Part shown: positions 9,086-63,366 of the stretch, piece by piece
Position numbering within the stretch: position 1 is the stretch's first letter
How the letters are laid out: each line of letters begins with the position of its first letter
NCBI RefSeq assembly: GCF_009916105.1
Contig: NZ_JAAAXQ010000002.1
Coordinates: forward strand, 1-64,000
Origin: Streptomyces sp. GC420
GTDB lineage: Bacteria; Actinomycetota; Actinomycetes; Streptomycetales; Streptomycetaceae
DNA length: 64,000 nucleotides
Reading direction: 5' to 3'
The notes under the pieces: model-generated
What the model was told of the DNA's origin: nothing
The model's input: only the letters and a program-made list of their open reading frames with translations
Database searches by the model: none
Translations under genes and position numbers: made by a program

Positions 9086-10299
9086 CAGGGGCAGGCTCCT
9101 CGGTCGGTTTCGGCCGTGAGCAGGCCGTCATCACGGCTGTGTTCGGCGACCAGCCTGCGCAGTGCGCGGAAGTCAACGGGCCTGCCTGCGGCGATACCGC
9201 CGATCAGCCGTCCGCTTCGGTATGCCGCGGCGGCGAAGTCGAAATCGGTGAGGCCACCTTGCACGATCAGCTCGTCAGCCTGCGCGGGATGCCCGCAGAT
9301 CTGCAGGTTGACTCCGTACTGGTTGGTCCAGCCCCAGGGCACGGCATCGTAGGGCCTGTGGTTGCCGGGGAGCATGTTCACGGCGACGGCCGCGCCGTGT
9401 TCTTGGGCGTGGTTCCACTGCTCGATCCGCACCCGCTGCCGGAGGATGGCATCGGGATGGCAGGCAACGTCGCCGGCCGCGTAGATGTGCGGTGCGCTCG
9501 TGGTGCCGTACGCGTCGACGACGATTCCGTCCGCCAAGTCGAGGCCGGCTTGCCGGGCGAGGGTGGTCTCCGGGGTCATACCCACGGCGACCAGAACCGT
9601 CTGGGCTTCCCAGAGGGTGCCCTCGTGGTCGGTCGCCACGAGCGTGTCCCCATGCCGGTCGAGGCGCTCGAGCCTCACATCAGTGTGGATGCGGACGCCA
9701 TGGGCTCGATGCAGCTCCATCACCTCCTGCCGCAGGCGGGCGGGCAGCACCCGCCCCAGGGGCTGGAGGGAGCTCTCCAGGACTGTGACCTGACAGCCCA
9801 TCGCCCGTGCCGTGGCCGCCACCTCCAGTCCCACCAGCCCCGCGCCGACGACGAGCAGCGGGCCGCCGGGCTGAAGGTCCGCACGCAGGGCGGCGACGTC
9901 GCCCAGGGTCCGCAGCGTGTGCACATGGTCGAGGCCCACTGCTTGGGGCAGGGTGCGGGCACGGCCGCCAGTGGCCAGAAGCAGTCGGTCATAGGGGAGC
10001 TGGGAGCCGTCAGCCAGCCGCAAGGCGTCAGCGTCCAGGCCGGTGACCTTCGTACCGGTGAGCAGTTCAATGTCCTGCTCGGCCCACGTGGATGTCGGCT
10101 TGAGCCGGGCAGCTTCTGGACGCGCCGAGTGCCGGAGCATGTTCTTGGACAGCGGAGGACGCTGGTAGGGCTCCTCGGGCTCATCACCAATCAGAACGAT
10201 CCGGCCGCCGAAGCCTTCCTTGCGGAGCGTGAGCGCGGCGGTGGTACCGGCCACTCCGGTGCCGACGATGGCGATGGTCCGGGGCAGAATCTCAGACAC
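9085..10299 (-). CDS. rubB: Rubredoxin/ferredoxin reductase (AlkT/RubB type)
   Basis: A 404-residue FAD- and NAD(P)H-binding reductase. The N-terminal FAD site reads [14 protein letters not shown], the NAD site [14 protein letters not shown] and the second FAD motif [12 protein letters not shown]. It feeds electrons from NADH to the rubredoxins encoded just upstream, which reduce the AlkB diiron centre. The GTG at 10299 overlaps the end of the second rubredoxin gene. An open frame continues upstream to 10446 but lies inside the rubredoxin, so the GTG is preferred. Order and overlap match actinobacterial alkB-rubA1-rubA2-rubB operons. Confidence 0.9.
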
Positions 10300-43851: not shown

Positions 43852-44003
43852 TCCGTGCCGGCCGTGCCGCGCACGTGTGGCAGAGCGCGACGGCGCTCGG
43901 CGCACCCCTTGGCATCCAGCGCCACGAAGCCTCGCGCCGCCACGCGATAGTCTGACCCCAGGCCACAAGTGGTGCCCGGGGGACGCGTGGAAGGACGGTG
44001 CAC

Positions 44004-44175
44004 GTGGACGCTCGGACAATGCGCGCCGACGCGGTCACCAGTGTCGGGAGGATCCTTGAGGCCGCACGTCGGGTCTTTGCGACAGGCGCGGGGGCAGGCC
44101 CGCTCACCAGGATCGCCCAGGAGGCCGGCGTGGGCATCGCCACGCTCTACCGGCATTTCCCGAACCGGCAGTCCC
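44004..44175 (+). pseudogene. TetR-family regulator, 5' part, split by composite transposon
   Basis: The N-terminal DNA-binding domain reads RILEAARRVFATGAGAGPLT, RIAQEAGVGIATLYRHFPNR, then QS, where the transposon begins. The GTG at 44004 follows GGAAGGACG; a GTG at 43998 is possible. Joining this part to the sequence after the second TCCC at 62962 continues without a stop as QSLAKAVAKAVYERIF through to the stop at 63366, giving a TetR protein of about 190 residues. In its present state the frame runs into the IS and ends at 44228, so only a DNA-binding domain plus a short tail could be made. Confidence 0.92.
44172..44175. repeat. Target-site duplication, left copy (TCCC)
   Basis: TCCC lies directly before the left terminal repeat of IS copy 1. 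The same four bases follow the right terminal repeat of IS copy 2 at 62962-62965. The inner flanks of the two IS copies (TCAC after copy 1, GGTC before copy 2) do not match, so the duplication belongs to the whole composite element. Confidence 0.85.
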
Positions 44176-44311
44176 TCTCGACTTTCGTCGTTCTGACCAA
44201 CTGTCAGGTAGGTAGCTCGCACGGGTGACCTGTGGCCATCGGCCCGGCCGGGAGGCAGACGCCAAGGAAGCATCGGCGGTGCTTATGTCGCCTGCTGTGA
44301 GGGACCCGCCG

Positions 44312-45511
44312 ATGCTTCCGGATCCGACCGTACCCGCATCTCTGCTCGCTGTGCTGGGCGCTTTGCGCGGCAGTTTCACCTCGCCGACCTTCTCCACGTT
44401 CGCCGCGCTGGTCACTGGGTTGATCGCGAACACCGGTCGGGGCACGGTCACCGGGATACTGCTGGGCGCGAACTTGACGCGTCACTGGTCCCATGACCGG
44501 GCCCACTCCTTCTTCGCCCGCGCCCGCTGGGAGCCGCAGACGCTGGGCGCGTCGCTGTCCCACCTTGTGGTGCGCTCTGTGGTACCCGACGGCACCCCGC
44601 TGACGGTGGCGGTGGACGACACGCTGTTCAAACGGCGTGGGAAGAAGGTCTTCGGCGCCGCCTGGCAGCACGACGGCTCCGCCGCCGGCCGCGACGGGAT
44701 CGGCTACGGCACCTGCTTCGTCGTCCTCGGCCTGATCGTGGACCTGCCGTGCCTGCCCCGTCCGGTGTGCCTGCCGGAGGCCGCCCGGCTGCACCGCCCG
44801 AAAGGCGAGCAGACCAAGGTCGAACTGGCCGCTTCCATGATCCGATTCCTGGCCGCCTGCCACTGGAGCCGACGTATCGATGTGGTCGCGGATGCCGCCT
44901 ACCACGGCAAGGCGCTGCGTGACCTGCCCGTATCTGTCACCTTCACCACCCGACTGCCGTCCCACGCGGTGCTCTACCGCCATGCCCCACCGCCGACCGG
45001 ACGGCGCGGTAGGCCCCGCCTGAAAGGCGACAGGCTCGGCACTCCGGCCGAGCTGGCCGCCACGCTGGCGTTCACCCCGCAGGCCGTGACCCGCTATGGC
45101 CGCACCGAGACCGTGTTCACCGCCGAGACCACCTGCCTGTGGTACGGCTCCTTCCACACCCAAACGGTGAAGGTGTTGCTGCTCCGCGAGGATGCCATCG
45201 ACACCGGCTACGACCTGGCGTTGATCTCCACCGACCTGACCGCGTCGGCCGGGCAACTGGTGACCCGGTATGCCGCGCGATGGTCGATCGAGGTGACCTT
45301 CGGCGAAGCCCGCAGCATCCTCGGCGTCGGCCAGGCCCACCACCGGACCCGGCGCGCGGTCCAGCGAGGGGTTCCGTTCGGCCTGTACTGCTACACAATC
45401 ACCGTGGTCTGGTACGCGCTGCACGGCCACCACCCCCAGGACGCGGCCGAGCACCGGGCACGGGCCCCGTGGTACCTCACCAAGACGCACCCTGATGGCG
45501 CTCCGACATGA
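44312..45511 (+). CDS. IS701-family DDE transposase, copy 1
   Basis: A transposase of 399 residues from the ATG at 44312 (GAGGGA 9 bases upstream; the frame is open further to 44225). The DDE residues are probably Asp102 or Asp103 in VAVDDTLFKRRGKKVFG, Asp194 in VVADAAYHGK and a Glu in SIEVTFGEARSILGVGQ. The KKVFGAAWQHD and RTRRAVQR segments are IS701 hallmarks. It acts on the terminal repeats of either IS copy, so it can move the whole composite element. The sequence is identical to copy 2. Confidence 0.92.
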   Translation: MLPDPTVPASLLAVLGALRGSFTSPTFSTFAALVTGLIANTGRGTVTGILLGANLTRHWSHDRAHSFFARARWEPQTLGASLSHLVVRSVVPDGTPLTVAVDDTLFKRRGKKVFGAAWQHDGSAAGRDGIGYGTCFVVLGLIVDLPCLPRPVCLPEAARLHRPKGEQTKVELAASMIRFLAACHWSRRIDVVADAAYHGKALRDLPVSVTFTTRLPSHAVLYRHAPPPTGRRGRPRLKGDRLGTPAELAATLAFTPQAVTRYGRTETVFTAETTCLWYGSFHTQTVKVLLLREDAIDTGYDLALISTDLTASAGQLVTRYAARWSIEVTFGEARSILGVGQAHHRTRRAVQRGVPFGLYCYTITVVWYALHGHHPQDAAEHRARAPWYLTKTHPDGAPT

Positions 45512-45636
45512 CCGCCAAGCTCCGCCGAACGATCATCGCGGCCCGATTTATGCCCATCGACGCCGGTCAGCCCACAGATACCGAAATCCGCGCCGTGCAA
45601 GAGGCATGGGCCGCAGCCAGCACAAACCTGGCATGA
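45508..45636 (+). CDS. Small ORF downstream of transposase, copy 1
   Basis: A 42-residue ORF whose ATG shares ATGA with the transposase stop; it reads MTAKLRRTIIAARFMPIDAG and ends just before the right terminal repeat. The overlap suggests coupled translation, or a C-terminal extension by frameshifting. Its function is unknown and it may be non-coding. Confidence 0.45.
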   Translation: MTAKLRRTIIAARFMPIDAGQPTDTEIRAVQEAWAAASTNLA

Positions 45637-45664
45637 CGATCAATCAGAACGTCGAAAGTCGAGA

Positions 45665-45870
45665 TCACCGTACAGACCCCAAAATCGGGCGTCGGCGCCG
45701 AGCAACGCGACGACCTGCGTATCCGCGCTGATGTCGCGGACAAGGGCGCGCAGATCCCGCGCGGTCGCGAGGTCGATGGCGTTGGCGGACGCCGGACGGT
45801 TCAAGGTGATCGTCGTGATGCCGTCGGCGTGATGGCGGACGACGCGGTCCATCTCCGTCTCGGTGTACAT
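45665..45870 (-). pseudogene. Enoyl-CoA hydratase, truncated by IS copy 1
   Basis: The N-terminal 68 codons of a crotonase-family protein (ITTITLNRPASANAIDLATA, then VVALLGADARFWGLYGDL) run from the ATG at 45870 into the right end of the IS. The sequence breaks within the oxyanion-hole segment (GADARFWGLYGDL aligns with the usual GAGRAFCAGGDL). The remaining roughly 190 residues are lost. It follows the acyl-CoA ligase gene by 51 bp on the same strand and was its operon partner. Its loss marks the left edge of the captured segment. Confidence 0.85.
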
Positions 45871-45921
45871 ACCTTCTCCTGATGATCCGGCGCGGTCGGG
45901 CGACTGATGCTTTCTGCTGGC

Positions 45922-47460
45922 TCAGTTCACGGCGCGTGCGAAGCCCTGCCAATACGGCTCGCGCAGCAGGAACTTCTGGATCTTGCCGGTCGCCGTGACG
46001 GGAATCGATTCACGGAACTCGACAGAGGTCGGTGCCTTGTACCCGGCGAGCCGCTCCTTGCAGTGCGCAATGATCTCGGCCTCGGTGACGCTGGCGCCCT
46101 CCGCGAGCACGACGAGAGCCTTGACGGTCTCGCCCCATCGCGAGTCCGGCACCCCGATCACCGCGACCTGCGCTACCGACTGGTGCCCGAAGATGCAGTC
46201 CTCCACCTCGATCGAGGAGACGTTCTCGCCTCCTGTGACGATCACGTCCTTCTTCCGGTCGGTGATCGTCAGATGGCCTTCGGAGTCCAGCGTGCCGCCG
46301 TCACCGGTGTGGAACCAGCCGTCGCGCAGGGCCGACTCGGTGGCTTGGGGGTCGTTCCAGTACCCCTGCATGACGACGTTGGAGCGTGCCAGCACCTCCC
46401 CGGAGTCGGAGATGCGGATCCGCGCTCCGAGGGCCGGCAGTCCGGCACGCGACAGCCGGCCGGCGCGCTCGTCGGCGCTGAGCACGTCGTCGACAGGAAG
46501 AGATCGGTTGAACGTCAGCAGGGGAGAGGTCTCGGTGAGTCCGTAGATCTGGTACATCTCCCACCCGAGCTCGTCGCCGAGTCGGGCGATGAGCCTACTC
46601 GGCGGCGGTGCGCCGGCGCAGATGAGGCGCACGCGATCGCGCCCCGGGATCTCACCGTCCCACGTCTGCGCCGCATCCACCACGGCGTTCCACACGGCCG
46701 GAGCGCCGCACATCAGCGTCACGCCGTGCGCCTCGACCCGCCGCAGGATCTCGGCACCGTCGACCTTGCGCAGCACGACCTGTGTCGCTCCGAGGCCAGC
46801 CATCCCGAACGGCATGCCCCAGCCGTTGCAGTGAAACATCGGCAGCGTGTGCAGATAGACGTCACGCTCCCAAGCGCGAGTGTGGAGGGCCAGCGTGGTG
46901 GCGTTGATCCACAGGTTCCGGTGGGTGATCTGCACGCCCTTCGGGCGGGACGTCGTTCCGGACGTGTAGTTGATGGTTGCGGTCGCTTCCTCCGACGGGT
47001 TCGCCCACGCGATCGGTTCGGTGTCGAACCGCATCAGTCCGGTCTCGGTCTCTTCACCGAGGACGAAGCGGTGCGGCACCACGATCCCGGACAGGGCCGA
47101 ATCGAGCTCGGGGTCCACGAGCAGCACCGACGCGCCGCAATGGTCGACGATGTAGCCGATCTCGGCCGGCGAGAGGCGGAAGTTGATCGGGACGCAGATC
47201 CGTCCGCTGGCCGGTACGGCGTACAGCAGCTCGAGGAGGCGAGCCGAGTTCTGGCTGACGACGGCCACCCGCTCGCCAACCGCGATGCCGAACGCGTCGA
47301 ACCCTGCCTGCCAGGCGCGCACCCTGTCGGCGAGCTGGGCGTAGGTCAGCGATCCCACGGAGATCGCTGGCTGCTCCGGTTCGTCGACGATGGCGAGGGA
47401 GTTGGCGAACCCCGTCACGCCTCGCTCCAGGAAGTCCGCGACCGTCAACGGAACGTGCAT
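45922..47460 (-). CDS. Acyl-CoA ligase (AMP-forming)
   Basis: A 512-residue adenylate-forming ligase. Motifs include the P-loop-like INYTSGTTSRPKGVQITHRN, YQIYGLTETSPLL, DGWFHTGDGGTLDSEGHLTI, TDRKKDVIVTGGENVSSIEV and the C-terminal catalytic Lys in VTATGKIQKFLL. The ATG at 47460 is chosen because GGAGG precedes it; the open frame continues 70 codons upstream. It activates a carboxylic acid to its CoA ester. In the cargo it may take the acid (such as benzoate or a short alkanoate) released by the meta-cleavage hydrolase. The substrate cannot be read from sequence. Confidence 0.9.
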   Translation of the reverse strand: MHVPLTVADFLERGVTGFANSLAIVDEPEQPAISVGSLTYAQLADRVRAWQAGFDAFGIAVGERVAVVSQNSARLLELLYAVPASGRICVPINFRLSPAEIGYIVDHCGASVLLVDPELDSALSGIVVPHRFVLGEETETGLMRFDTEPIAWANPSEEATATINYTSGTTSRPKGVQITHRNLWINATTLALHTRAWERDVYLHTLPMFHCNGWGMPFGMAGLGATQVVLRKVDGAEILRRVEAHGVTLMCGAPAVWNAVVDAAQTWDGEIPGRDRVRLICAGAPPPSRLIARLGDELGWEMYQIYGLTETSPLLTFNRSLPVDDVLSADERAGRLSRAGLPALGARIRISDSGEVLARSNVVMQGYWNDPQATESALRDGWFHTGDGGTLDSEGHLTITDRKKDVIVTGGENVSSIEVEDCIFGHQSVAQVAVIGVPDSRWGETVKALVVLAEGASVTEAEIIAHCKERLAGYKAPTSVEFRESIPVTATGKIQKFLLREPYWQGFARAVN

Positions 47461-47537
47461 GGGTAACCTCCGCAATCTGCCCGTCGTGCCACACGGCACG
47501 CCAAGCGGCACAGTATTGAGCCGGAAACCTCGCGGAC

Positions 47538-47558
47538 TTCCGTAATTCACCCGGATGT
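47538..47558 (+). promoter_or_regulatory. Candidate BphT operator, copy 1
   Basis: The pattern TTCCGTA-N-TT followed by CCCGGATGT lies 85 bp before the start of the broken enoyl-CoA hydratase that leads the bphD transcript. Two further copies occur at 49294-49314 and 60669-60689. Confidence 0.65.
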
Positions 47559-47642
47559 TTCGACCGACATCGGCCCGTCTACTGAGACCGAAGCCACACC
47601 GCGCCAGATCCGCGCGGGCCGGTCGAACGAAGGAGATGGGCG

Positions 47643-48258
47643 ATGACGGTGCCGCGGGACGCTGGGTCATCGCGGTGGCGCGGTGGGTCCAGCAAGCCGC
47701 GGGATGACGGCGTGGTCGTCACCTGCGTCGACCGGGTGCTGCGAGTGAGCCTCAACCGGGTCCTGGCGCTGAACGCCATACGACGCCGCGATGGCGCGCC
47801 GCCTGAACTTCGTCTGGTGCAGTGTGCGCGACGACCCCGAGGTCGACGCGATCGTGCTCAGCGGTGCGGGAGCCGAAGCCTTCTCCGTCGGCTTCGACCG
47901 CGCCGACCGTCCGTCCGTCCCGGTCACGCCGCGCGAGTGCGGCGTCGACAAGCGTCTGGTCGTCGCGGTGAATGGGGTCGCCTGCCGGGAGGCGTTGCAG
48001 CTGGTCGAACAAGCGGACGTCGTCGTTGCCTCCGCCCACGCCCGGTTCCTGGCAGCTGCACCTGACCTGGTCGGCCCGCGGCTGACTACCCGTGGTTCGA
48101 CCGGCACTGCGCCTGCACCCATCACCGCCGAGCACGCCCTCAGGTCGGGCCTGGCTGACGACGTCGTACCGCTCGCCTCGCTGCACCGACGCGCGGCGGA
48201 ACTGGCCACATCCCTTGACCACCCACACACTCAGCACCGGAGAAGGAACCTCACATGA
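47643..48258 (+). pseudogene. Enoyl-CoA hydratase, frameshifted and shortened
   Basis: The ATG at 47643 leads to GVVVTCVDRVLRVSLNRVLA and LNAI, the crotonase N-terminus. Around 47775-47790 the homologous sequence moves to another frame (MARRLNFVWCSVRDDPEVDA, IVLSGAGAEAFSVGFDRADR). Later ITAEHALRSGLADDVVPLAS matches the family, but about 60 residues between are missing or scrambled. The total is near 205 codons against the usual 255. The last codons overlap the bphD ATG (ATGA), so even as a broken gene it may deliver ribosomes to bphD. Confidence 0.75.
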
Positions 48259-49079
48259 CCGTGACCTCGACGACCGAAAGCCGCAGGATCAAGGCGGGTG
48301 GCGTTGACACCACCTACTTCGACTCAGGCGTGGGCGAGCCCGTCATCCTCATCCACGGATCGGGTCCGGGAGCGTCCGCTTGGGCCAACTGGCGGAAGAT
48401 GATCGGACCGCTCTCGGAGAACTTCCGCGTCATCGCCCTCGACCTCGTCGGGTGGGGCACGACCGAGCGCCCCGACGACGTCTGGTACTCGCTCGAGACG
48501 TGGACCGACCAAGTGCTCGGCCTGATGGACGCGCTCGAGGTCGACGAGGCCTCGTTCGTCGGGAACTCCCTCGGCGGCCGGATCGCCCTGGAGCTGGCGA
48601 GTCGTCACCCGGAGCGGGTGCAGCGCATGGTCCTGATGGGCTCGCCGGGTCTGGGGATGGTCCCGACCGAGGCGCTGAAGGCGCTTCGCTCCTACGAGCC
48701 GTCGTATGACGCGATGGAGGATCTCCTCGTCAACGTCTTCGTGTGCGATCCGGTCATCATCACGCCTGACCTCGTCCTGGACCGGTACGAGGCGAGCATC
48801 GCCCCCGGCGCTCACGAGGCCTACCGCTCCATGTTCTTCGACGAGAAGCACGCCGGGAACGATCTCGGCATCACGCCCGAGGTCGTCAGCGCGATCGAGA
48901 CGCCGACCCTCGTCGTCCACGGGCGGGAGGACCGCGTCGTTCCCCTCCAGGTGGGGATCAACATGGCCCAGGCGCTGCGCAACGCGGACATGCACGTCTT
49001 CGGCAATTGCGGTCACTGGACCCAGCTCGAGCGGGCCGACGACTTCAACGCGGTCGTCGAGCAGTTCCTCAGCAGCTGA
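48255..49079 (+). CDS. bphD: Meta-cleavage product hydrolase (BphD-like)
   Basis: A 274-residue alpha/beta hydrolase of the C-C bond hydrolase group. Hallmarks are HGSGPGASAWANW near the N-terminus, the nucleophile Ser105 in VGNSLGGR, Asp226 in HGREDRVVP and His254 in GNCGHWTQLE. It cleaves the vinylogous diketone made by BphC to 2-hydroxypenta-2,4-dienoate and an acid (benzoate if biphenyl is the substrate). It comes before the dioxygenase genes, whereas many bph operons place it after bphC. Alkylbenzene-type substrates are equally possible. Confidence 0.92.
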   Translation: MTVTSTTESRRIKAGGVDTTYFDSGVGEPVILIHGSGPGASAWANWRKMIGPLSENFRVIALDLVGWGTTERPDDVWYSLETWTDQVLGLMDALEVDEASFVGNSLGGRIALELASRHPERVQRMVLMGSPGLGMVPTEALKALRSYEPSYDAMEDLLVNVFVCDPVIITPDLVLDRYEASIAPGAHEAYRSMFFDEKHAGNDLGITPEVVSAIETPTLVVHGREDRVVPLQVGINMAQALRNADMHVFGNCGHWTQLERADDFNAVVEQFLSS

Positions 49080-49293
49080 CCGCAGCCAGGAGCAGTGGTG
49101 GGCCCGCGACAACGGCGCTCCCGGGCCGGCCGGCGCACGTGGGGCGGCGTACGGCGTCGTCTCGATGCCCGTGTCCCGGCGGGCCTCTGTGGCGCCGCGA
49201 CAAGGCCGCAGAACGCCTTGGAATGCGGCGTCGGACAGCGCGCGTCGCGCTGCCCTTGCCCTGTGCTCACCGCGCTACCTGACCTGGAACAAC

Positions 49294-49314
49294 TTCCGTA
49301 CTTTCCCCGAATGT
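49294..49314 (+). promoter_or_regulatory. Candidate BphT operator, copy 2, bphA promoter region
   Basis: TTCCGTACTTTCCCC followed by GAATGT lies in the 330-bp gap between bphD and bphA1 (49080-49409), 95 bp before the bphA1 ATG. The gap has no gene. The spacing to the start codon is close to that of copy 1, and both copies face the downstream genes. Confidence 0.7.
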
Positions 49315-49349
49315 ATGGGGCCACCGGCTCCACCGCCCTTGGGCGATAG

Positions 49350-50795
<1,446 letters not shown>

Positions 50796-50832
50796 GCCCG
50801 ACTCCCTCTTGAATTCGCGGAAGGGAATTCCG

Positions 50833-51402
50833 ATGACGATCAACATGGAAGCGCCTGCGAACGCTCTTGTGAGCATGAAGCCCGGGCCGGTCGATCCCGT
50901 CCTGCAGCACGAGGTCGAGCAGTTCTACTACTGGGAGGCCAAGCTTCTCAACGACCGGCGCTTCGTGGACTGGTTCAAGCTGCTGGCGCAGGACGTCCGG
51001 TACCTCATGCCGATCCGTTCGACTCGGATGATGCGCGAGGCGAGCCTGGAGTGGGGCGCCGTGGGCGACTACGCCCACTTCGACGACAACCACGAGATGA
51101 TGGCCGGGCGGATCAGGAAGATCACCTCCGACGTGAGCTGGTCGGAGAACCCGGCCTCGCGCACCCGCCACGCGATCACGAACGTCATGATCCTTGACGG
51201 TGATCGGACCGACGAGCTCGAGGTCTCGAGTGTCTTCGTGGTGTACCGGAGTCGACTCGAGCGCCAGGTGGACATCTTCACTGGCGAGCGTCGTGACGTC
51301 CTGCGGCGGACCGATATCGATGCTGGCTTCGAGATTGCGTCGCGGACGATCCTGATCGACCAGAGCACGATCCTGTCGAACAACCTCAGCTTCTTCTTCT
51401 AG
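50833..51402 (+). CDS. bphA2: Aryl-ring-hydroxylating dioxygenase beta subunit
   Basis: A 189-residue small subunit with the family pattern [20 protein letters not shown], then [20 protein letters not shown] and [19 protein letters not shown] at the C-terminus. It assembles with BphA1 as a hexamer and has no cofactor. The ATG at 50833 follows GGAAGGG; a TTG 24 bases upstream is in frame but less likely. It lies 37 bp after bphA1. Confidence 0.95.
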
Positions 51403-51414
51403 GGGGTAGTTCAG

Positions 51415-51737
51415 ATGGGTTTGACGCGGATCTGTGCAGCTGCGGATGTTCCTCCGGGCGAAATGCTCCGGTTCGACAGCGACGAAGGGCCACTCCTTCT
51501 CAGCAATGTCGACGGCGAGTACTTCGTCACGCAGGACACCTGTACTCATGATGACTGGTCGCTCTCCGAGGGATACCTGGAGGACGGCATCGTCGAGTGC
51601 ACCCTGCACTGGGCGCGGTTTTGTGTCCGTACAGGAGCGGTCAAGGCGTTGCCGGCATCCACGCCGCTGCGCACGTACGTCGTCATGGTCGAGGACGGCG
51701 ACGTCATGGTGGACCTCGAATGCGAGGCCGCGTCGGC

Positions 51738-51741
<4 letters not shown>
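51415..51741 (+). CDS. bphA3: Rieske ferredoxin of the dioxygenase
   Basis: A 108-residue Rieske ferredoxin. The cluster ligands are Cys43 and His45 in [10 protein letters not shown] and Cys62 and His65 in ECTLHWARF. It carries electrons from BphA4 to BphA1. Its stop overlaps the bphA4 start (ATGA). Length and position are those of rhodococcal bph operons. Confidence 0.95.
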
Positions 51742-54711
<2,970 letters not shown>

Positions 54712-54821
54712 ACGCACCTGCCGTCACCGCCGGGCCTGCTGGACACACGGGGGCCTCCCCCTGAGTGGTGGACACGCTGATACTGGATCTGCTTGATCCG
54801 GAGGAAGCGAGAACACCGCCG

Positions 54822-55115
54822 ATGGCGATGAAGGACTACTCGGACGAGTTCAAGGCCGATACCGTGGCCCTGTACGAGTCCACGCCCGGGGCGACCTACA
54901 AGAGTATCGCCGCTGACCTGGGCATCAACAGGGAGACGCTGCGTGAGTGGGTGCTGCGGGACCGGGAACGTCGCGGCGTCGCCCCGGCGGCCGCTCGGTC
55001 AGGCAGGGCAGCGCCGGCCCGGGCAGGACAGCTGGCACCGTCCGCCGACCCGGACGAACGGATCCGGCAGCTGGAGGCCCGGGTGGCCGAGTACTACAGC
55101 CTCAGATCTTCGTGA
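54822..55115 (+). pseudogene. IS3-family orfA relic
   Basis: From the ATG at 54822 the frame reads MAMKDYSDEFKADTVALYES, GATYKSIAADLGINRETLRE and WVLRDRERRGV, the helix-turn-helix half of IS3-type OrfA, then AARSGRAAPARAGQLAPSAD and a coiled-coil start RIRQLEARVAEYY. It breaks off there, and orfB is absent. The segment 55116-55281 up to bphS holds no gene. The IS landed between bphC and bphS and was later deleted in part. Confidence 0.8.
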
Positions 55116-55281
55116 TGTGATCGGCTGTGGTCGGGTGATGCTCGCCAGGGGCGGAGGCGGGCGGGCAGGGGGTCGCCGCGCCGGGTGTAGTGGCTGACGG
55201 TTGCCCGGGTCGGGTGTGTCCACTTTCGCAGGGGAAGGCCCCATCTATTCTCCAGAATGGTCCGTCGGGCTTGGTGAGGGC

Positions 55282-58200
55282 ATGCAGTTCAACACGGTGA
55301 AGGTGCTGCGGGAGAGTCCCGGCATCACGACGACGCTCGCGGTCTCGGCGGATGACCGCGAGCTCGTGGTGCGACGTCTGGATCTCTCGAGGACTCGGCC
55401 GTGGAGCCGGCGGTGGCTCGAGGGCGAGGTCGAGACCATCCGAAGGACGCGACTTCCCCATGTCGTGGCGGTCACGATCGCGGATCGGGGACTGGATCAC
55501 CTCGACCTGGTCCGTCCCTTCGTCGAAGGGCTGGACATTCGGGAGTGGTTCGCCCGGCAGCCGCCCCCCTCGCTCGTCGAGCAGCTCAGGGTGATGAGCA
55601 CGCTGTTCTACCCGCTGGCGCGCCTGCACAGCCTGGGCATCGCCCATGGAGGTGTGACGCCGGCGAACATCGTGCTGACCGGGCGTGGCGACCTGGTCCT
55701 GCTCGACGTGGGGGTGTCGCGTGCGCAGCTTGCTGCGCGGGACGGCTGGACGGATCGCGCGGACGTGGACAATCAGCGAAGCGACCAGCCGCATCAGCAC
55801 CTGGACGTGGGCTTCACCGCCGACCTTTTCGCTGCTGGCCTCGTGCTGTTGGAGTCAGTCGCTCAGGTGAATCGCACGGCGAGTGTGCTGCGGCGCATGC
55901 ACCCGTCCGCGGAAGGCCTCGGAGATCCGGCGCAGCTCCTCGATCTCGTGAGGGTGCCGAGTCCGTTGCGGCCCGTCTTCGCGAGACTGCTCGACCCCGT
56001 TCCGGCGATGCGTTTCCAGACCGCCGAGGAGGTGCTCGGCGAGCTCGAAGCGCTGCTCGCAACGAGCACCAAGCTGGAGCCCGGCGCCGGCGTACCGCAG
56101 GGGTCCGGCGCGTCGACGTCTGCGCCCGCGCCGCCGCCGGTGGGCCGGTACCACGAGCTCGCCGCACTCATCAGCGGCGCGGAAGGGGCCGAGCATGGGT
56201 CTGGATCGACCATCTGCCTGAGCGGAGAATCGGGCCTCGGCAAGACCCACCTGCTGGACGCTGTGACCGAGCACGCGGCGGGGCGGGGAACGACCGTGTT
56301 GCGCACCGGCGCCTTCGACCAGGCCCCGACGCGGCCGTTGGGTCCGTTCGGCGGAGTGTTTCGGGACGTGGTCGCCCACCTGGGCGCGCACCCGGACGGC
56401 GTGGTGCGTGTCCGCGACGATCTGGGCGACCTCCTTCCCGTGGTTCTCGACCAGGTCCCCGAGTTCGCCGCTGCCTTCGCGGGCGCGCCCGCAGCGCGAG
56501 AGCCGGGGCCCGTGCTCCTGGACGCCCCGGCCCAGGTCGTCCCCGCGGCGATCGCCAGGCTGCTGGTCGCCGCCTTCGGGCCCGAGGACGCTGGTTTGAT
56601 CGTTCTCGACGACGGTCAATGGGCTGACGACCTGACCTGGCAGGTGCTCGAGAAGCTGGCCGAAACGATCGGGGCCAGAGCGCCCACCGGCGCTGCCAGC
56701 ATCACGCTGGTCATCTCCTGTCGGCCCGAAGCCGTGGCAAGGGTCCGCGAGTGGGGCGTAGCTCAGGTCGAGTACGTCGGCCTCTCGCCGCTCTCGGAGG
56801 TGGACACCGAGCAGCTGATCCGCTCGGTCGACGCCAGCGTGCCCGCCGACGTGATCCCCTACGTCGCGAAACTCTCGCGCGGGAATCCCCTGGACGCCCT
56901 CCTCATCTGCCAGGGGCTGATGGATTCGTCCTTCCTCAGCGGGGCATCCGCTGGCTGGACGGCAGACGAGCGCGCTGACGGCGGCGAGCCCGCGCCGCTC
57001 GACGCACGACGATCAAGTCCGGAACGCGGCGCCCCTGAGGTCCTGGTCTCGACGTGGCTGAGCTCGCTGTCACCCCCGACGGCGGAGGCCCTGCATCAGG
57101 CTGCTGTCATCGGACGACGGTTCTCTGCCGGGCTCCTCGCCGCTGCCCTGTCGGTGAGCGCATCGGCGGTCGAGCAGCGACTGGACGAAGCCGTCCGTCG
57201 AGGCATCGTTCGCGGCGTCCCGGGCGGGGATCGCGGCGAGCTCGAGTTCGCCCATGACCGCCTCCGCGACGCAGTGCTGCGCGCGCTGGACGAGGGCGGC
57301 AGGCAGGCGCTGCACCTCCGTGCTGCTCGTGCCCTGCAACGACGGGGGACGTCGCGGGCCGATTACGACATCGCCTACCACTATGCGCGCGCGGGGCACC
57401 CGGCTGAGGCGTTGGACTATGCGCTCCGCGCCGGGGAGGCCGGGCTGAGGCACCATGCCCTCGACGTCGCCGAGATCAATTTCGCGATCGCCGAGGCCGG
57501 TCTCGCGAGCAGCGACCTCGGTGTCGACGACGGCCTGGGGTTTCGCGTCTACGAGGGTCTGGGCACCGTCCACATGCTCCGTGGCAACTACGACCTGGCC
57601 GCCAAGGAGCTGGTCCGCGCGCACGACCTGTCGAGAACCCAGACGGCCACCGACTCCGTCCCGATCGCCACGCTGCTGAGCGAGCTCGCCTTCAAGACCG
57701 GACGCTTCGACGACGCTGCCCAATGGCGGCAGCGCTCGCTGGAGGACCTCGCGTTGCCGGTTCCCCGACACGCCTGGCACGCTGGCGTCTCCGTGCTGTA
57801 TGAGTTGGTGCTCCTCGCCGGCGGGTGGCTCGTCCGGCCCCTCCGGGCAGGCAGATCCGCGCGGCGGTACGTCGACAGTGAACGTCGGCGCCTGGCCGCA
57901 CGGACGTACAACCGGCTGGTGTACGAGTGGTGGTTCATCCGATCGCCGGTCTGGGTGGTGTGGGCGATCCTGCGCGGCGCCCGGTTCGCGAATGCCGCTG
58001 GGAGCACACGAGAACGAGCACAGGCACTGTCCACAGCGGCGGTCCTCTCGGGCACAGCACCGATCCTGGCGCCGATCGCCCTGCGACTGATCAACCGCTC
58101 GCTGCGGCTGCGAGAACGCGCCGGAGATGGCTGGGGGCTCGCGCAGTCGCACCACTTCCGTGGGTTCGTGCTCTACGCCGCCAACCGGTACCGCGAGGCG

Positions 58201-60021
58201 ATCGAGGCTTTCGACACCGCTATCACCGCCTTCGACGTCCTCGGGGATCGCTGGGAGCAGGTCGCTGCGATGTGGCAGAAGGCGTTGTGCTTCGGGCGGT
58301 TGGGACTGTTGAACGATGCCGGGACGCTGGCGCGCTACACCTACCGGGAGGCCAAGCGTCGGGGCGACCTGATCGGGGCGGGCACCGCACTGGCGATCTG
58401 GGCCAGCTACCTGCCCGGAGACGTCGCCATCGAGACGCTGATGCGCGAGATCAACGAGACCGACCCCGGGGATCGCCACACCCTCGCCTTGTTGCAGGCG
58501 TCGCGCGCGCAGCGACTCGCTCACGCGGAGCACTACGAGCAAGCCCTGGACGCAGCTCGGCAGGCCGACGAGCTGCTGCGCGCCTCGGGGATCAGGAACC
58601 ACTTCCTGGCCCCGATCCTCACCTCGCATCTCCAGATCCTCCGTATGTCCTTGCCCGCCGGTGCTTCCTGGTGGACCGAGGAGCGACGACTCCAGACCAG
58701 GACCTCCAGAAGGATCCTTCGACGTGCGCGACGCTCCGCTCTCGTCTTCAGCGGCGAACGTCCGGCGGCGTGGCGGGAATGGGCACTGATGGCGTTCGCC
58801 TCGGGTCACCGGCTGCTCGGAAGCGTGGTCCTGCGGGCCGCGGCCCGCAGCGCACGGCGCCACGCGGCACAAGGCGAATTGGCGGCGTGCGCACTGGTGG
58901 CTTCCCTGGCGGGCGTCACACCCCGACGAGGCGCCCTCGCCGGAATCTCGGTGCCCGAGACCGTCCGTGAGCTGGGCATCAGCGTCGACCGCGGCATCGT
59001 GGAGGCCGGGTCGGCGCACGAACCGTTCGCCGGCACCTCTTCGACGCGTCATCATGCGTTGCTCGATGCCGTCAGCTCCCTGGTTGCCGCCGACGAGGTC
59101 GCCGAGGTGCTCGACAAGCTTCGCGATGCCGTGTTCGCAACCACCACCGCGCGACGGGTCGAGTTCACTCGGAACGAGACCGAAGTCGAACAACGCGAGC
59201 CGGGTACCGCACCCGAGAGTGCCGAGATGCACGTCACCGAACGGTTGGTCATGCCCGTCGGTAGCGACGGCGAGGCCGAGGTCTCGGTGGTGGCGGCCTT
59301 CCCGCTGGGAGAAGGCGAGCAGCACGCGCCGACGATGGAAGTGCTCGCGGCAGTCGCGGGTGGCGTGATCGAGCGCGAGATCCTTCGCCGGGAGTCGATG
59401 GAGCGCATGGTCGCCGTACAGGAAGCCGAGCGCGGTCGAATTGCGCGCGACCTCCACGACGAGTTCAGCCACCTGTTCGCCACCGCGATGGGCGGGCTCA
59501 GCACGCTCCAGGACTCCTCGGACCCGGCCGTGCGGGAGACGGCGACCGAGGTGCGCGAGATCGTCCGCCAAGGCATCACGGTGGCGCGCTCGGTCGCTTG
59601 GTCGCTGCGGCCTTCCGGGCTCGACGACCTCGGTCTCGTCGGATCCATCGAGCAGTACGTCGAGGACTTCCGCGAGCGGTTCCCGATCCGGGTCGATCTC
59701 ACGACCACCGGCCATGTTCCCGCGCTGTCTCCGGCCGTAGAGACAGCGGTTTTCCGCATCGTCCAGGAGGCGCTGACCAACATCGCGCGGCACAGCGGCG
59801 CCCGCGAAGCCAGCGTCATGCTCGTCGGTTCCACGGACTCCCTCCGCGCGGTCGTGGAAGATAATGGAATCGGCTTCGATGTCGAGCTCGCCGACCAGCG
59901 CAAGTCGCTGGGCCTCATCGGCGCACGCGAACGTACCCGGTTGGTCGGTGGGCGGCTGTCCATCGAATCCAGTCCCAACCAGGGAACGACGATCATGGCG
60001 GAGGTGCCGGTCAAGTCGTGA
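55282..60021 (+). CDS. bphS: Giant sensor histidine kinase (BphS/BpdS type)
   Basis: A 1,579-residue sensor from the ATG at 55282; an earlier TTG at 55201 would add 27 residues. In order: a protein-kinase-like domain (about 1-250) with AHGGVTPANIVL where active kinases have HRD, so probably a pseudokinase; an AAA/STAND-type ATPase with Walker A GESGLGKT near 315-322 and LIVLDDGQWADD; a long TPR-like helical region; a GAF-like region near 1250-1370; then a histidine kinase with RIARDLHDEFSHL (His about 1392) and the N-box QEALTNIARHSG. The layout matches rhodococcal BphS (about 1,576 residues), which senses aromatics. It is coupled to bphT. Confidence 0.93.
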   Translation: MQFNTVKVLRESPGITTTLAVSADDRELVVRRLDLSRTRPWSRRWLEGEVETIRRTRLPHVVAVTIADRGLDHLDLVRPFVEGLDIREWFARQPPPSLVEQLRVMSTLFYPLARLHSLGIAHGGVTPANIVLTGRGDLVLLDVGVSRAQLAARDGWTDRADVDNQRSDQPHQHLDVGFTADLFAAGLVLLESVAQVNRTASVLRRMHPSAEGLGDPAQLLDLVRVPSPLRPVFARLLDPVPAMRFQTAEEVLGELEALLATSTKLEPGAGVPQGSGASTSAPAPPPVGRYHELAALISGAEGAEHGSGSTICLSGESGLGKTHLLDAVTEHAAGRGTTVLRTGAFDQAPTRPLGPFGGVFRDVVAHLGAHPDGVVRVRDDLGDLLPVVLDQVPEFAAAFAGAPAAREPGPVLLDAPAQVVPAAIARLLVAAFGPEDAGLIVLDDGQWADDLTWQVLEKLAETIGARAPTGAASITLVISCRPEAVARVREWGVAQVEYVGLSPLSEVDTEQLIRSVDASVPADVIPYVAKLSRGNPLDALLICQGLMDSSFLSGASAGWTADERADGGEPAPLDARRSSPERGAPEVLVSTWLSSLSPPTAEALHQAAVIGRRFSAGLLAAALSVSASAVEQRLDEAVRRGIVRGVPGGDRGELEFAHDRLRDAVLRALDEGGRQALHLRAARALQRRGTSRADYDIAYHYARAGHPAEALDYALRAGEAGLRHHALDVAEINFAIAEAGLASSDLGVDDGLGFRVYEGLGTVHMLRGNYDLAAKELVRAHDLSRTQTATDSVPIATLLSELAFKTGRFDDAAQWRQRSLEDLALPVPRHAWHAGVSVLYELVLLAGGWLVRPLRAGRSARRYVDSERRRLAARTYNRLVYEWWFIRSPVWVVWAILRGARFANAAGSTRERAQALSTAAVLSGTAPILAPIALRLINRSLRLRERAGDGWGLAQSHHFRGFVLYAANRYREAIEAFDTAITAFDVLGDRWEQVAAMWQKALCFGRLGLLNDAGTLARYTYREAKRRGDLIGAGTALAIWASYLPGDVAIETLMREINETDPGDRHTLALLQASRAQRLAHAEHYEQALDAARQADELLRASGIRNHFLAPILTSHLQILRMSLPAGASWWTEERRLQTRTSRRILRRARRSALVFSGERPAAWREWALMAFASGHRLLGSVVLRAAARSARRHAAQGELAACALVASLAGVTPRRGALAGISVPETVRELGISVDRGIVEAGSAHEPFAGTSSTRHHALLDAVSSLVAADEVAEVLDKLRDAVFATTTARRVEFTRNETEVEQREPGTAPESAEMHVTERLVMPVGSDGEAEVSVVAAFPLGEGEQHAPTMEVLAAVAGGVIEREILRRESMERMVAVQEAERGRIARDLHDEFSHLFATAMGGLSTLQDSSDPAVRETATEVREIVRQGITVARSVAWSLRPSGLDDLGLVGSIEQYVEDFRERFPIRVDLTTTGHVPALSPAVETAVFRIVQEALTNIARHSGAREASVMLVGSTDSLRAVVEDNGIGFDVELADQRKSLGLIGARERTRLVGGRLSIESSPNQGTTIMAEVPVKS

Positions 60022-60647
60022 TTAGTGTGGCGGTGTGCGATGACCACGGGCTCATCCGTTCCGGTATCCGGCGCATCCTCGAGGCGACATCGGAGTTCGA
60101 GCTGGTGGCGGCGGTGGCGACCGGCGACGCTCTCATGTCCGCGCTCCCGAACCTGCGACCCGACCTGCTCGTGCTCGACATCCGGCTGGCCGACGTCAGC
60201 GGCCTCGACCTGCTGGAGAAGATCGCCGCAGTCGCCCCGCAGACCCGAGTAGTCGTGCTGAGCATGCACGGCGCGAAGGGATACGTGGAGAAGGCCCGAG
60301 CGCTCGGCGCACGCGGTTACATCACCAAGGAATGCCTCGACGAGGACCTAATGTCGGTGCTCCGTGCCGTGATCGCCGACGAGGGCTTCGTATCGTTCCG
60401 TGCCGCCGCACCGACCGCGAGCGGCGCCGCGCAGCGGCGAAGCGCCGACATCGATGCACTGTCGTCGCGCGAGCTTGAGGTGCTGAGGTTGATCGCGGCG
60501 GGACTGACCACGGGTGAGGTCGCCGAGCAGCTTACAGTCTCCCCGCGCACCGTCGAGAGCCATCGCGCGAGCATCCAGCGCAAGTTGCAGGTCCGCACTC
60601 GTGCCGAGCTGGCGCGGATCGCCCTGGATGAGGGCCTTCTGGACTGA
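60018..60647 (+). CDS. bphT: NarL/LuxR-type response regulator (BphT/BpdT type)
   Basis: A 209-residue response regulator, the same length as rhodococcal BphT from memory. The receiver domain has the acidic pair Asp8/Asp9, the phosphorylated Asp54 in LVLDIR and Lys in YITKE. The LuxR-type helix-turn-helix covers about 147-195 (SSRELEVLRLIAAGLTTGEV, EQLTVSPRTVESHRA). The GTG at 60018 overlaps the bphS stop by four bases. It should activate the bph promoters, probably through the three copies of the TTCCGTA-type motif in the cargo. Confidence 0.93.
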   Translation: MISVAVCDDHGLIRSGIRRILEATSEFELVAAVATGDALMSALPNLRPDLLVLDIRLADVSGLDLLEKIAAVAPQTRVVVLSMHGAKGYVEKARALGARGYITKECLDEDLMSVLRAVIADEGFVSFRAAAPTASGAAQRRSADIDALSSRELEVLRLIAAGLTTGEVAEQLTVSPRTVESHRASIQRKLQVRTRAELARIALDEGLLD

Positions 60648-60668
60648 GTCGCGAGCTCGGCGCGGCTT

Positions 60669-60689
60669 TTCCGTAGTTTCCCTCGGATG
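60669..60689 (+). promoter_or_regulatory. Candidate BphT operator, copy 3, orphaned
   Basis: TTCCGTAGTTTCCC, one extra base, then CGGATG lies 22 bp after bphT. It faces right, where only fragments follow, so it probably marks the promoter of a third regulated operon that was lost on rearrangement. Confidence 0.6.
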
Positions 60690-60925
60690 GCGGTCGGCCG
60701 CGCTGAGGGAAGACTTACCTTCACTGAGCTCGTTTCATCCGGAAGTTGCTGGTCACGGGTCTGGTGTGGCGGTGGTTGGGTGTACTCGTGCTGGCAGAGC
60801 GGCATGATCGTGGGGCTTGATCGTCCGTCAAGGATCCTTGGGTGATTGCCTGTTCTGCCTGCACGCTGGGTACGGATGCGCCTACGATCCGTGTCGGAGG
60901 CGTCACGCGGACGGCAGGGGGATCG

Positions 60926-61033
60926 GTGGACCCGATACTGGAGCGGATCGGCACGCGCCGCGCCTACCTCGCTGAGCAGGCCGAACTGCTGGGCAAGCAG
61001 CTGGCGGGGGTTGTCGACAGAGGCGGACCGTGA
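60926..61033 (+). pseudogene. Small coiled-coil protein fragment
   Basis: The frame from GTG 60926 reads VDPILERIGTRRAYLAEQAE and LLGKQLAGVVD, a heptad-like start typical of small actinobacterial ORFs found near mobile elements. It ends abruptly at the junction with the NTPase fragment on the other strand. Function is unknown. It is useful mainly as a junction marker. Confidence 0.4.
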
Positions 61034-61396
61034 GCAGGACGCGTTCGTAGTCCGATCCGTTCGATGCCGAGCGGGCCAGGTCGATCCGGATCGGCAGGAT
61101 TCGCCGGCCTGCCCAGGCGGGCTCGCCCCACTGGACGGGACGCTGCTCGGCGTCGGTGAGCGATGCCTCGATCTTGCGCAGCAGGGTCGACTTCCCGACG
61201 CCGCCGACCCCGTGGAACACGATCACGTTGTTGCGCGGCGCCTCCAGGTCCTCGACGTCGAAGCCCGGGGCGGCGATGTGCCGCAGGTGCTCCTCGATGG
61301 CGGTGGCGACAAGGTGCCACTGGGCTTGGCGGTGGTGAATGCCTCGTCGCTGCCCACGGGGTCATTGCAACTGAACAGCGCACGAAGGTCGGCCAT
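61030..61396 (-). pseudogene. STAND/NACHT-type NTPase, N-terminal fragment
   Basis: On the minus strand MADLRALFSCNDPVGSDEAF starts at 61396. After a one-base shift near 61345 the homologous frame continues QAQWHLVATAIEEHLRHIAA, PGFDVEDLEAPRNNVIVFHG and VGGVGKSTLLRKIEASLTDA, the last with a Walker A GVGGVGKS. It is cut near 61030 where it meets the coiled-coil fragment. Such NTPases of actinomycetes are large, so most of the gene is missing. Confidence 0.6.
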
Positions 61397-61608
61397 GTGA
61401 CGAGGTCCCCCCAGAAGTGATCACCTGAGACCCAACCTATGCCGCGTACCGTGACCGGCCGCAGGCCAGGTCTCTCGACTTTCGTCGTTCTGACCAACTG
61501 TCAGGTAGGTAGCTCGCACGGGTGACCTGTGGCCATCGGCCCGGCCGGGAGGCAGACGCCAAGGAAGCATCGGCGGTGCTTATGTCGCCTGCTGTGAGGG
61601 ACCCGCCG

Positions 61609-62808
61609 ATGCTTCCGGATCCGACCGTACCCGCATCTCTGCTCGCTGTGCTGGGCGCTTTGCGCGGCAGTTTCACCTCGCCGACCTTCTCCACGTTCGC
61701 CGCGCTGGTCACTGGGTTGATCGCGAACACCGGTCGGGGCACGGTCACCGGGATACTGCTGGGCGCGAACTTGACGCGTCACTGGTCCCATGACCGGGCC
61801 CACTCCTTCTTCGCCCGCGCCCGCTGGGAGCCGCAGACGCTGGGCGCGTCGCTGTCCCACCTTGTGGTGCGCTCTGTGGTACCCGACGGCACCCCGCTGA
61901 CGGTGGCGGTGGACGACACGCTGTTCAAACGGCGTGGGAAGAAGGTCTTCGGCGCCGCCTGGCAGCACGACGGCTCCGCCGCCGGCCGCGACGGGATCGG
62001 CTACGGCACCTGCTTCGTCGTCCTCGGCCTGATCGTGGACCTGCCGTGCCTGCCCCGTCCGGTGTGCCTGCCGGAGGCCGCCCGGCTGCACCGCCCGAAA
62101 GGCGAGCAGACCAAGGTCGAACTGGCCGCTTCCATGATCCGATTCCTGGCCGCCTGCCACTGGAGCCGACGTATCGATGTGGTCGCGGATGCCGCCTACC
62201 ACGGCAAGGCGCTGCGTGACCTGCCCGTATCTGTCACCTTCACCACCCGACTGCCGTCCCACGCGGTGCTCTACCGCCATGCCCCACCGCCGACCGGACG
62301 GCGCGGTAGGCCCCGCCTGAAAGGCGACAGGCTCGGCACTCCGGCCGAGCTGGCCGCCACGCTGGCGTTCACCCCGCAGGCCGTGACCCGCTATGGCCGC
62401 ACCGAGACCGTGTTCACCGCCGAGACCACCTGCCTGTGGTACGGCTCCTTCCACACCCAAACGGTGAAGGTGTTGCTGCTCCGCGAGGATGCCATCGACA
62501 CCGGCTACGACCTGGCGTTGATCTCCACCGACCTGACCGCGTCGGCCGGGCAACTGGTGACCCGGTATGCCGCGCGATGGTCGATCGAGGTGACCTTCGG
62601 CGAAGCCCGCAGCATCCTCGGCGTCGGCCAGGCCCACCACCGGACCCGGCGCGCGGTCCAGCGAGGGGTTCCGTTCGGCCTGTACTGCTACACAATCACC
62701 GTGGTCTGGTACGCGCTGCACGGCCACCACCCCCAGGACGCGGCCGAGCACCGGGCACGGGCCCCGTGGTACCTCACCAAGACGCACCCTGATGGCGCTC
62801 CGACATGA
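61609..62808 (+). CDS. IS701-family DDE transposase, copy 2
   Basis: Identical to the copy 1 transposase (399 residues, same start choice, same candidate catalytic residues in VAVDDTLFKRRG, VVADAAYHGK and SIEVTFGEAR). Two intact transposases mean the element is probably still mobile. The direct orientation of the two IS also allows loss of the cargo by homologous recombination, leaving one IS in tetR. Confidence 0.92.
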   Translation: MLPDPTVPASLLAVLGALRGSFTSPTFSTFAALVTGLIANTGRGTVTGILLGANLTRHWSHDRAHSFFARARWEPQTLGASLSHLVVRSVVPDGTPLTVAVDDTLFKRRGKKVFGAAWQHDGSAAGRDGIGYGTCFVVLGLIVDLPCLPRPVCLPEAARLHRPKGEQTKVELAASMIRFLAACHWSRRIDVVADAAYHGKALRDLPVSVTFTTRLPSHAVLYRHAPPPTGRRGRPRLKGDRLGTPAELAATLAFTPQAVTRYGRTETVFTAETTCLWYGSFHTQTVKVLLLREDAIDTGYDLALISTDLTASAGQLVTRYAARWSIEVTFGEARSILGVGQAHHRTRRAVQRGVPFGLYCYTITVVWYALHGHHPQDAAEHRARAPWYLTKTHPDGAPT

Positions 62809-62933
62809 CCGCCAAGCTCCGCCGAACGATCATCGCGGCCCGATTTATGCCCATCGACGCCGGTCAGCCCACAGATACCGAAATCCGCGCCGTGCAAGAG
62901 GCATGGGCCGCAGCCAGCACAAACCTGGCATGA
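62805..62933 (+). CDS. Small ORF downstream of transposase, copy 2
   Basis: Identical to the 42-residue ORF of copy 1, again starting in an ATGA overlap with the transposase stop. Conservation between two recent copies carries no evidence of selection. Confidence 0.45.
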   Translation: MTAKLRRTIIAARFMPIDAGQPTDTEIRAVQEAWAAASTNLA

Positions 62934-62961
62934 CGATCAATCAGAACGTCGAAAGTCGAGA

Positions 62962-62965
62962 TCCC
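62962..62965. repeat. Target-site duplication, right copy (TCCC)
   Basis: TCCC directly follows the right terminal repeat of IS copy 2 and equals the four bases before IS copy 1 at 44172-44175. Four-base duplications are usual for the IS701 family. Confidence 0.85.
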
Positions 62966-63366
62966 TGGCCAAGGCGGTGGCCAAGGCGGTGTATGAACGA
63001 ATCTTCAGCACCGAGATCGAACCGGTGCTCACCCGGTTGACGTCGACCAGTGCGCCCTCCGACATCCTCTTGGAGGTCGCGCAGCGGATCGCCACCGTCG
63101 CCCGGCGCGAGCGCGGACTCGTGACGTCGTTGGACTCGCTGGGAGAGACGACCGCGGACCTGCTCGGCCGGCATGGACCGTCGTTCGACGAGTTCGTCGA
63201 GCGTGGACAGGCCGCCGGTAACTTGCGTGCGGACATCTCGGGCGCCGACGTACCGAACTTGCTGGCGATGTTCGCCTCCAGCACCGCGGTGCTGAACGTA
63301 GACGCCGAGGCACGGCGTCGCTACCTCGGATTCATGCTGGACGCGCTGCGCCCGCAGTGTGTGTGA
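62962..63366 (+). pseudogene. TetR-family regulator, 3' part
   Basis: After the transposon the frame reads LAKAVAKAVYERIFSTEIEP, VLTRLTSTSAPSDILLEVAQ and continues to LGFMLDALRPQCV, a typical ligand-binding domain end. It has no start of its own that makes biological sense. Joined in frame to the 5' part at 44004-44175 it completes the regulator. The first codons contain a tandem 12-bp repeat (62967-62990) that encodes AKAV twice. Confidence 0.92.

Follow-up and report, generated by a model that had tools for sequence, protein, structure and literature searches.

Three TTCCGTA-type motif copies on a Streptomyces composite transposon as predicted BphT operators, the third probably a severed promoter

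The three copies of a TTCCGTA-type motif found beside bph genes in a Streptomyces genome raise the question of whether they are operators of the regulator BphT encoded next to them and, if so, what the third copy, with no gene behind it, represents. A scan of the window, which is the whole stretch of 64,000 nucleotides from Streptomyces sp. GC420 that was analysed, found the pattern TTCCGTAnTT(T/C)(C/A)CC on the plus strand at the three positions given in the preliminary description (Table 1). The distances to start codons reported there were also recovered, being 85 bp from the end of copy 1 to the ATG at 47643 and 96 bp from the end of copy 2 to the ATG at 49410. The CGGATG/CGAATG block said to follow the motif directly adjoins it in copies 1 and 2, whereas in copy 3 it comes only after an extra T, giving half-site spacings of N9 for the first two and N10 for the third. 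It should be considered that this pattern was derived from the copies themselves, so that exact matches to it are partly circular. As judged from the sequence comparisons presented below, the three copies are very probably operators (BphT boxes) of the adjoining BphS-BphT system, copy 3 probably being the relic of a severed promoter.

Table 1. Features of the transposon-borne bph region, in window coordinates
Feature	Position	Strand	Remarks
Composite transposon, 18.8 kb	44176..62961		holds the three boxes, the bph genes and bphST
Left IS701-family insertion sequence	44176..45664	+	transposase ORF 44225-45511; NF049999 267.7 bits (cut-off 170)
CoA ligase (AMP-binding), divergent from copy 1	45922..47460	-	79% identical to pRHL1 counterpart; AMP-binding families
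Copy 1, predicted box TTCCGTAATTCACCCGGATG	47538..47557	+	in the ligase/hydratase gap
Hydratase region	47643..48258	+	two different frames
bphD-like hydrolase	48255..49079	+	58-61% identical to Nocardioides hydrolases adjoining boxes
Copy 2, predicted box TTCCGTACTTTCCCCGAATG	49294..49313	+	96 bp before bphA1
bphA1, A2, A3, A4, B, C	49410..54711	+	identities to RHA1 pRHL1 in the text
bphS, large sensor kinase	55201..60021	+	59.9% identical to RHA1 over 1606 positions
bphT, NarL/LuxR-type response regulator	60018..60647	+	67.9% identical to RHA1; Response_reg, GerE
Copy 3, TTCCGTAGTTTCCCTCGGATG	60669..60689	+	N10 spacing, without a following gene
Probable mobile-element end of the host genus	60722..60830		matches from 60719-60722 on; ends paired in inverted orientation in 3 genomes
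Right IS701-family insertion sequence	61473..62961	+	transposase ORF 61522-62808; identical to left copy

The earlier placement of all three copies inside a transposon holds, as they lie between two identical insertion sequences bounded at both ends by TCCC. This 4-bp target duplication occurs at the outer ends only (44172-44175 and 62962-62965), so that both two insertion sequences flanking a cargo and a single outer target duplication are present. Moreover, joining the outer flanks gave one uninterrupted TetR-like frame, whose C-terminal part matches TetR_C_43 and whose N-terminal part was recognised by eye; the halves of this tetR gene, 43900-44175 and 62966-63366, are split by the transposon. 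Among the plasmid records, this insertion sequence appeared in three, all from Streptomyces, with identities of 89-98%.

Within the transposon, a large BphS-type sensor kinase and a BphT-type regulator both adjoin the bph genes, their ORFs overlapping by 4 bases. The identities of the bph products to those of RHA1 pRHL1 were 82% (A1), 70% (A2, computed from 50830, a start inside the ORF), 67% (A3), 62% (A4), 73% (C) and 52% (B), and the matches of B to TIGR03325 and of C to TIGR03213 were both above cut-off. For BphS, the AAA_16, TPR, HisKA_3 and HATPase domains were above cut-off, and a kinase-like match was below the Pfam cut-off. The order ligase-box-hydratase at copy 1 is that of RHA1, where fragments of bphD come after the hydratase gene; in contrast, the bphD of the window is intact behind the hydratase region. 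The dioxygenase operon also differs in its gene order, which is B-C in the window and C-B in RHA1. No Pfam family matched the ORF beginning at 47643, and the hydratase-like reading, which runs from about 47782/47791, is in another frame, so the hydratase gene of the window may be broken or misassembled. Furthermore, a short ORF between bphC and bphS (54765-55115) resembles, by eye, the first ORF of an IS3-type transposase, and bphST may therefore be uncoupled from the bphA operon.

The counterpart of the boxes in Rhodococcus is the 20-mer TTCCGTAGTTTTCCCGGATG, which precedes bphA1 on pRHL1 (strain RHA1), pBD2, pROB02 (strain B4) and the plasmid of strain TG-1, and which recurs within the ligase/hydratase gap of pRHL1, pRHL2 and the B4 and TG-1 plasmids. 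On pBD2 the same 20-mer was additionally found at 167577, upstream of an AMP-binding gene. In a study of strain C1, a 24-bp sequence behind BphST regulation is placed 185 bp upstream of bphA1 (PMC11881993); the 24-mer that starts at L002:13744 on pBD2 likewise stops 185 bp short of the annotated start of bphA1 (13953), the counterpart being identified by its position. Both the match to the sequence before bphA1 in RHA1, pBD2, B4 and TG-1 and this distance support the proposal of the preliminary description that the motif copies are BphT operators, and the conservation of the 20-mer at both places in Rhodococcus plasmids, the ligase/hydratase gap and the stretch ahead of bphA1, argues in the same direction. 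So does the enrichment of the pattern TTCCGTAnTTTyCCCGGATG, which at up to 3 mismatches gave 20 sites across six plasmid records, the reversed control giving 1. A total of 8 of these 20 sites belong to RHA1, lying before bphA1, two dioxygenase alpha genes and the genes for a reductase, a hydrolase and an SCP2 sterol-binding protein, and in two ligase/hydratase gaps. The box-linked dioxygenase, reductase and hydrolase genes are presumably etbAa1, etbAa2, etbAd and etbD1, and the BphS1T1 regulon of Rhodococcus jostii RHA1 was reportedly described by Takeda in 2004 and 2010 and by Shimodaira in 2012. The perfect box before the SCP2 sterol-binding gene was found on pRHL2 and pRWAY02 (L103:34749 and L105:3410, minus strand).

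In published work, five promoters or gene clusters are given as controlled by BphST or BphS1T1 (PMC6099782, PMC10282184), and a sterol transfer protein is among those listed for strain TFB as induced by naphthalene (PMC3937715). In a report on ThnST, which governs tetralin genes in Rhodococcus sp. TFB and, like the window system, has a LuxR-family regulator, point mutations in an 18-bp box resembling biphenyl-inducible promoters lowered tetralin induction (PMC6563040), which favours the reading of the present copies as BphT operators.

To what extent the copies stand out from chance depended on the test applied. At up to 2 mismatches, at least three matches appeared in 14 of 100 shuffles of the window, so this loose test was not significant. 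A matrix of 20 positions was then considered, built from 11 distinct 20-mers, all outside the window, to which the more distant R. oxybenzonivorans system contributed one; a simple background of 71% GC was assumed, and expected counts refer to 2 x 8.59 Mb. The training sites scored 17-35 when left out one at a time. Copy 2 scored 27.4 (expected count 0.008) and copy 1 scored 22.2 (0.33). Copy 3 scored 11.3 without a gap (163, not significant) and 33.8 after the removal of one base (3e-5, or an estimated ~6e-4 when the base is freely chosen). Thus, with the window sequences kept out of the matrix, copy 2 is clearly supported, copy 1 modestly and copy 3 only if its extra base is allowed.

In the own genome (8.59 Mb in 854 contigs), the 14-mer occurred exactly only at the three copies, with 11 more places at 1 mismatch, compared with 8 places at up to 1 mismatch for the reversed pattern. 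A 20-mer pattern modelled on copies 1 and 2 found both at 0 mismatches and four other places, all at 3, the control giving 0. At up to 2 mismatches, the 20-mer matched 17 of 392 genomes of the genus, the own genome (through copies 1 and 2) among them; with the latter left out, there were 17 sites in 16 of 391 genomes against 17 matches of the reversed control. An abundance of the motif elsewhere in the genome, which had been named as an observation that would count against the operator reading, was therefore not seen, its level being that of the background in the own genome and in the 391 others. This background level, together with the matrix scores of copies 1 and 2, is a further reason to regard the copies as BphT operators. 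Furthermore, the own genome was the only one of 391 in the host order with a relative of BphT at E <= 1e-45, and a threshold of E <= 1e-40 gave relatives in 3 of the 341 Nocardioides-family genomes, one being a fragment. A BphT gene fragment 80% identical over 168 residues lies at G512:C2:56420-56950 (in L114); in the 44 kb read around it no match to the bphS kinase was found, nor any box at up to 5 mismatches, bar one 5-mismatch match far off.

These distributions bear on the idea that the motif serves some regulator other than BphT or is a promoter element of a general kind. Similar DNA-binding domains are common to several LuxR-type regulators, and the assignment to BphT is made here from sequence; however, since the motif does not exceed background in the other 391 genomes of the genus and repeatedly accompanies bphST plasmids and related regulators in Nocardioides, this explanation is highly improbable.

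The similarity around the boxes was also compared. When the 80-base flanks of the three copies were set against those of 10 reference boxes and against each other, shuffle P-values below 0.06 were obtained in 3 of 72 tests, which is about the number expected by chance; these were copy 1 against the RHA1 ligase box (upstream, 0.050) and copy 1 against the SCP2 box (upstream, 0.057; downstream, 0.013). Conservation thus covers the boxes but not the DNA around them, which, along with the adjacency of bphST, again argues for operators. It also follows that the three copies are not recent duplicates of each other, a possibility that was discarded because their flanks are not common to them. Chance similarity or recent duplication is accordingly the least credible explanation, barely worth considering: the window shuffles and the count of 0.33 expected per genome for copy 1 would allow for it, but the expectation for copy 2, the agreement of the positions with RHA1 and the dissimilar flanks do not.

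Regarding the form of the site, the outer arms agreed as an inverted repeat in 3-5 of 5 positions across 13 sites. Agreement was full (5/5) in one Nocardioides form and in the box of R. oxybenzonivorans, and copy 2 reached 3/5 owing to its CGAATG. In their N9 spacing, copies 1 and 2 agree with the related sites that were collected. A direct repeat of period 10 was rejected, as it agreed in 1-4 of 8 positions, a poorer fit. Downstream of the boxes, no consistent -10 element was visible.

The preliminary description took the third copy for an orphan promoter, and indeed no gene follows it; more precisely, it is read here as a relic, probably severed, whose spacing is altered. The copy begins 21 bp past the bphT stop. 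In two Nocardioides genomes (G391 and G392; loci L038 and L039), whose bphST clusters share with the window the order A1-A2-A3-A4-B-C-S-T and a box after bphT, this box stands 131 and 240 bp past the bphT match, with bphD following 75 bp later. These clusters differ from that of the window in that bphD follows the post-bphT box, in that the box begins with A, and in their regulator (65% identical); no bphD was found downstream of copy 3 in the window. Instead, matches to DNA of the host genus start sharply at 60719-60722, which places the end of the imported DNA no more than about 32 bp past copy 3. In 3 of 4 genomes read (only 501 bp were read of the fourth), the ends that match occur as inverted pairs with a spacing of about 1.7-2.7 kb, an arrangement like that of mobile-element ends. 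Similarity to many genomes of the genus sets in from about 61020, with 53 of 295 (own included) matching part of a 772-bp query, and the ORF from this region had only weak P-loop NTPase matches, all below cut-off. The order bphT-box-bphD in the two Nocardioides genomes and the sharp start of host-genus DNA are the reasons for considering copy 3 severed, and we infer from its position that the lost gene may have been bphD, the flanks being without similarity.

Alternatively, copy 3 might be a working BphT promoter directed outward to the right IS701 transposase, in which case aromatic inducers would raise transposase transcription. Both point in the same direction, the transposase ORF beginning 832 bp past the box, and no terminator-like site was found within 60500-61600 on either strand (shuffle mean 0.5). 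However, 12 related stretches (some overlapping), scanned with up to 2 mismatches, gave no box form with N8, N10 or N11 spacing to set beside copy 3, and about 0.8 kb of host-genus DNA intervenes, including the end of another mobile element. Such an outward promoter is thus improbable, and copy 3 is better regarded as a severed promoter with off-register spacing.

According to the proposed mechanism, BphS would sense aromatic compounds and phosphorylate BphT, which would then bind the imperfect inverted repeat TTCCG-N9-CGGAT and activate transcription. The bphA1A2A3A4BC genes would be driven from copy 2, copy 1 would serve the hydratase-bphD side and perhaps also the divergent CoA ligase gene, and copy 3 would be a promoter whose gene was lost as the bph block became joined, at its right side, to the mobile-element end of the host genus. 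The kind of system is already known, as RHA1 has homologous BphS and BphT, a box before bphA1 and in the ligase/hydratase gap, and the same 20-mer core. In contrast to RHA1, the set in the window is on one composite transposon, in Streptomyces, and includes an orphan third box; what is new is this setting, the severed third box and a possible wider operator family. The locus offers a testable case of a catabolic pathway that seems to travel with its own sensor, regulator and operators, and its control therefore need not depend on the host. Moreover, the set of likely BphT boxes is widened to the ligase/hydratase gap, an SCP2-type gene and bphD, and copy 3, as a natural N10 spacing variant, could be informative on how BphT reads its site.

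The possible wider family was examined in more distant relatives. Among ten loci with distant regulators (L041-L050), eight (L041-L048, Solirubrobacterales-type) carried, on the far strand immediately ahead of the regulator gene, a match to TTCCGTAnTTTyCC with 2 mismatches at most; L049 had no such match and L050 only an unlike one elsewhere. The alignment of the eight showed one conserved block, with the consensus TTCCGTACCTTTCCGCAGACTT, in the otherwise variable gap between the regulator and a divergent kinase gene. A search pattern drawn from these same loci occurred, in 7 of 8 genomes searched, at exactly one place each at up to 1 mismatch, in the regulator/kinase gap; at 2-3 mismatches there were 9 more places in five genomes, and the reversed controls gave 4 in all. 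The eight regulators are 37-39% identical to BphT overall, with 39-41 of 63 residues shared with the window BphT in the DNA-binding domain compared with 34-39 of 130-142 in the rest, and the recognition-helix stretch RTVESHRASIQ is identical in all of them and BphT. The right half of the block is unlike CGGATG. Three proteobacterial relatives with other helices, drawn from eleven plasmid matches below 60% identity that include the R. oxybenzonivorans locus, had no box match, apart from a 2-mismatch site within the regulator gene of Ideonella. The Solirubrobacterales block is thus a lead, not a proof. Somewhat speculatively, and with the odds against it, the BphT box and its reading helix could form an old module reaching far beyond biphenyl degradation, of which the transposon carries a portable copy whose third box could lead transcription toward the transposase.

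Besides these, a box-like stretch, TCCGTAGTCAGCGCGGATG, lies just past a 42% identical regulator at L040:10668; it may be chance and was set aside, as a short inverted-repeat pattern is expected, by estimate, about once per two such lengths. Plasmid pRB98 of Rhodococcus oxybenzonivorans (L057) resembles the window in having a large kinase, a regulator and two N9 boxes, but its regulator is 38% identical, its box GTCCGTGTTTTCCCCGGACG is a full inverted repeat, and the stretch read is without bph genes. These two boxes are at L057:7136 and L057:17074 (minus strand), and one of them fronts a divergent gene beside the kinase gene. Finally, outside the transposon, a reductase-like stretch at 9148-10275 is 41% identical to BphA4, and further catabolic genes may thus be present in the host stretch.
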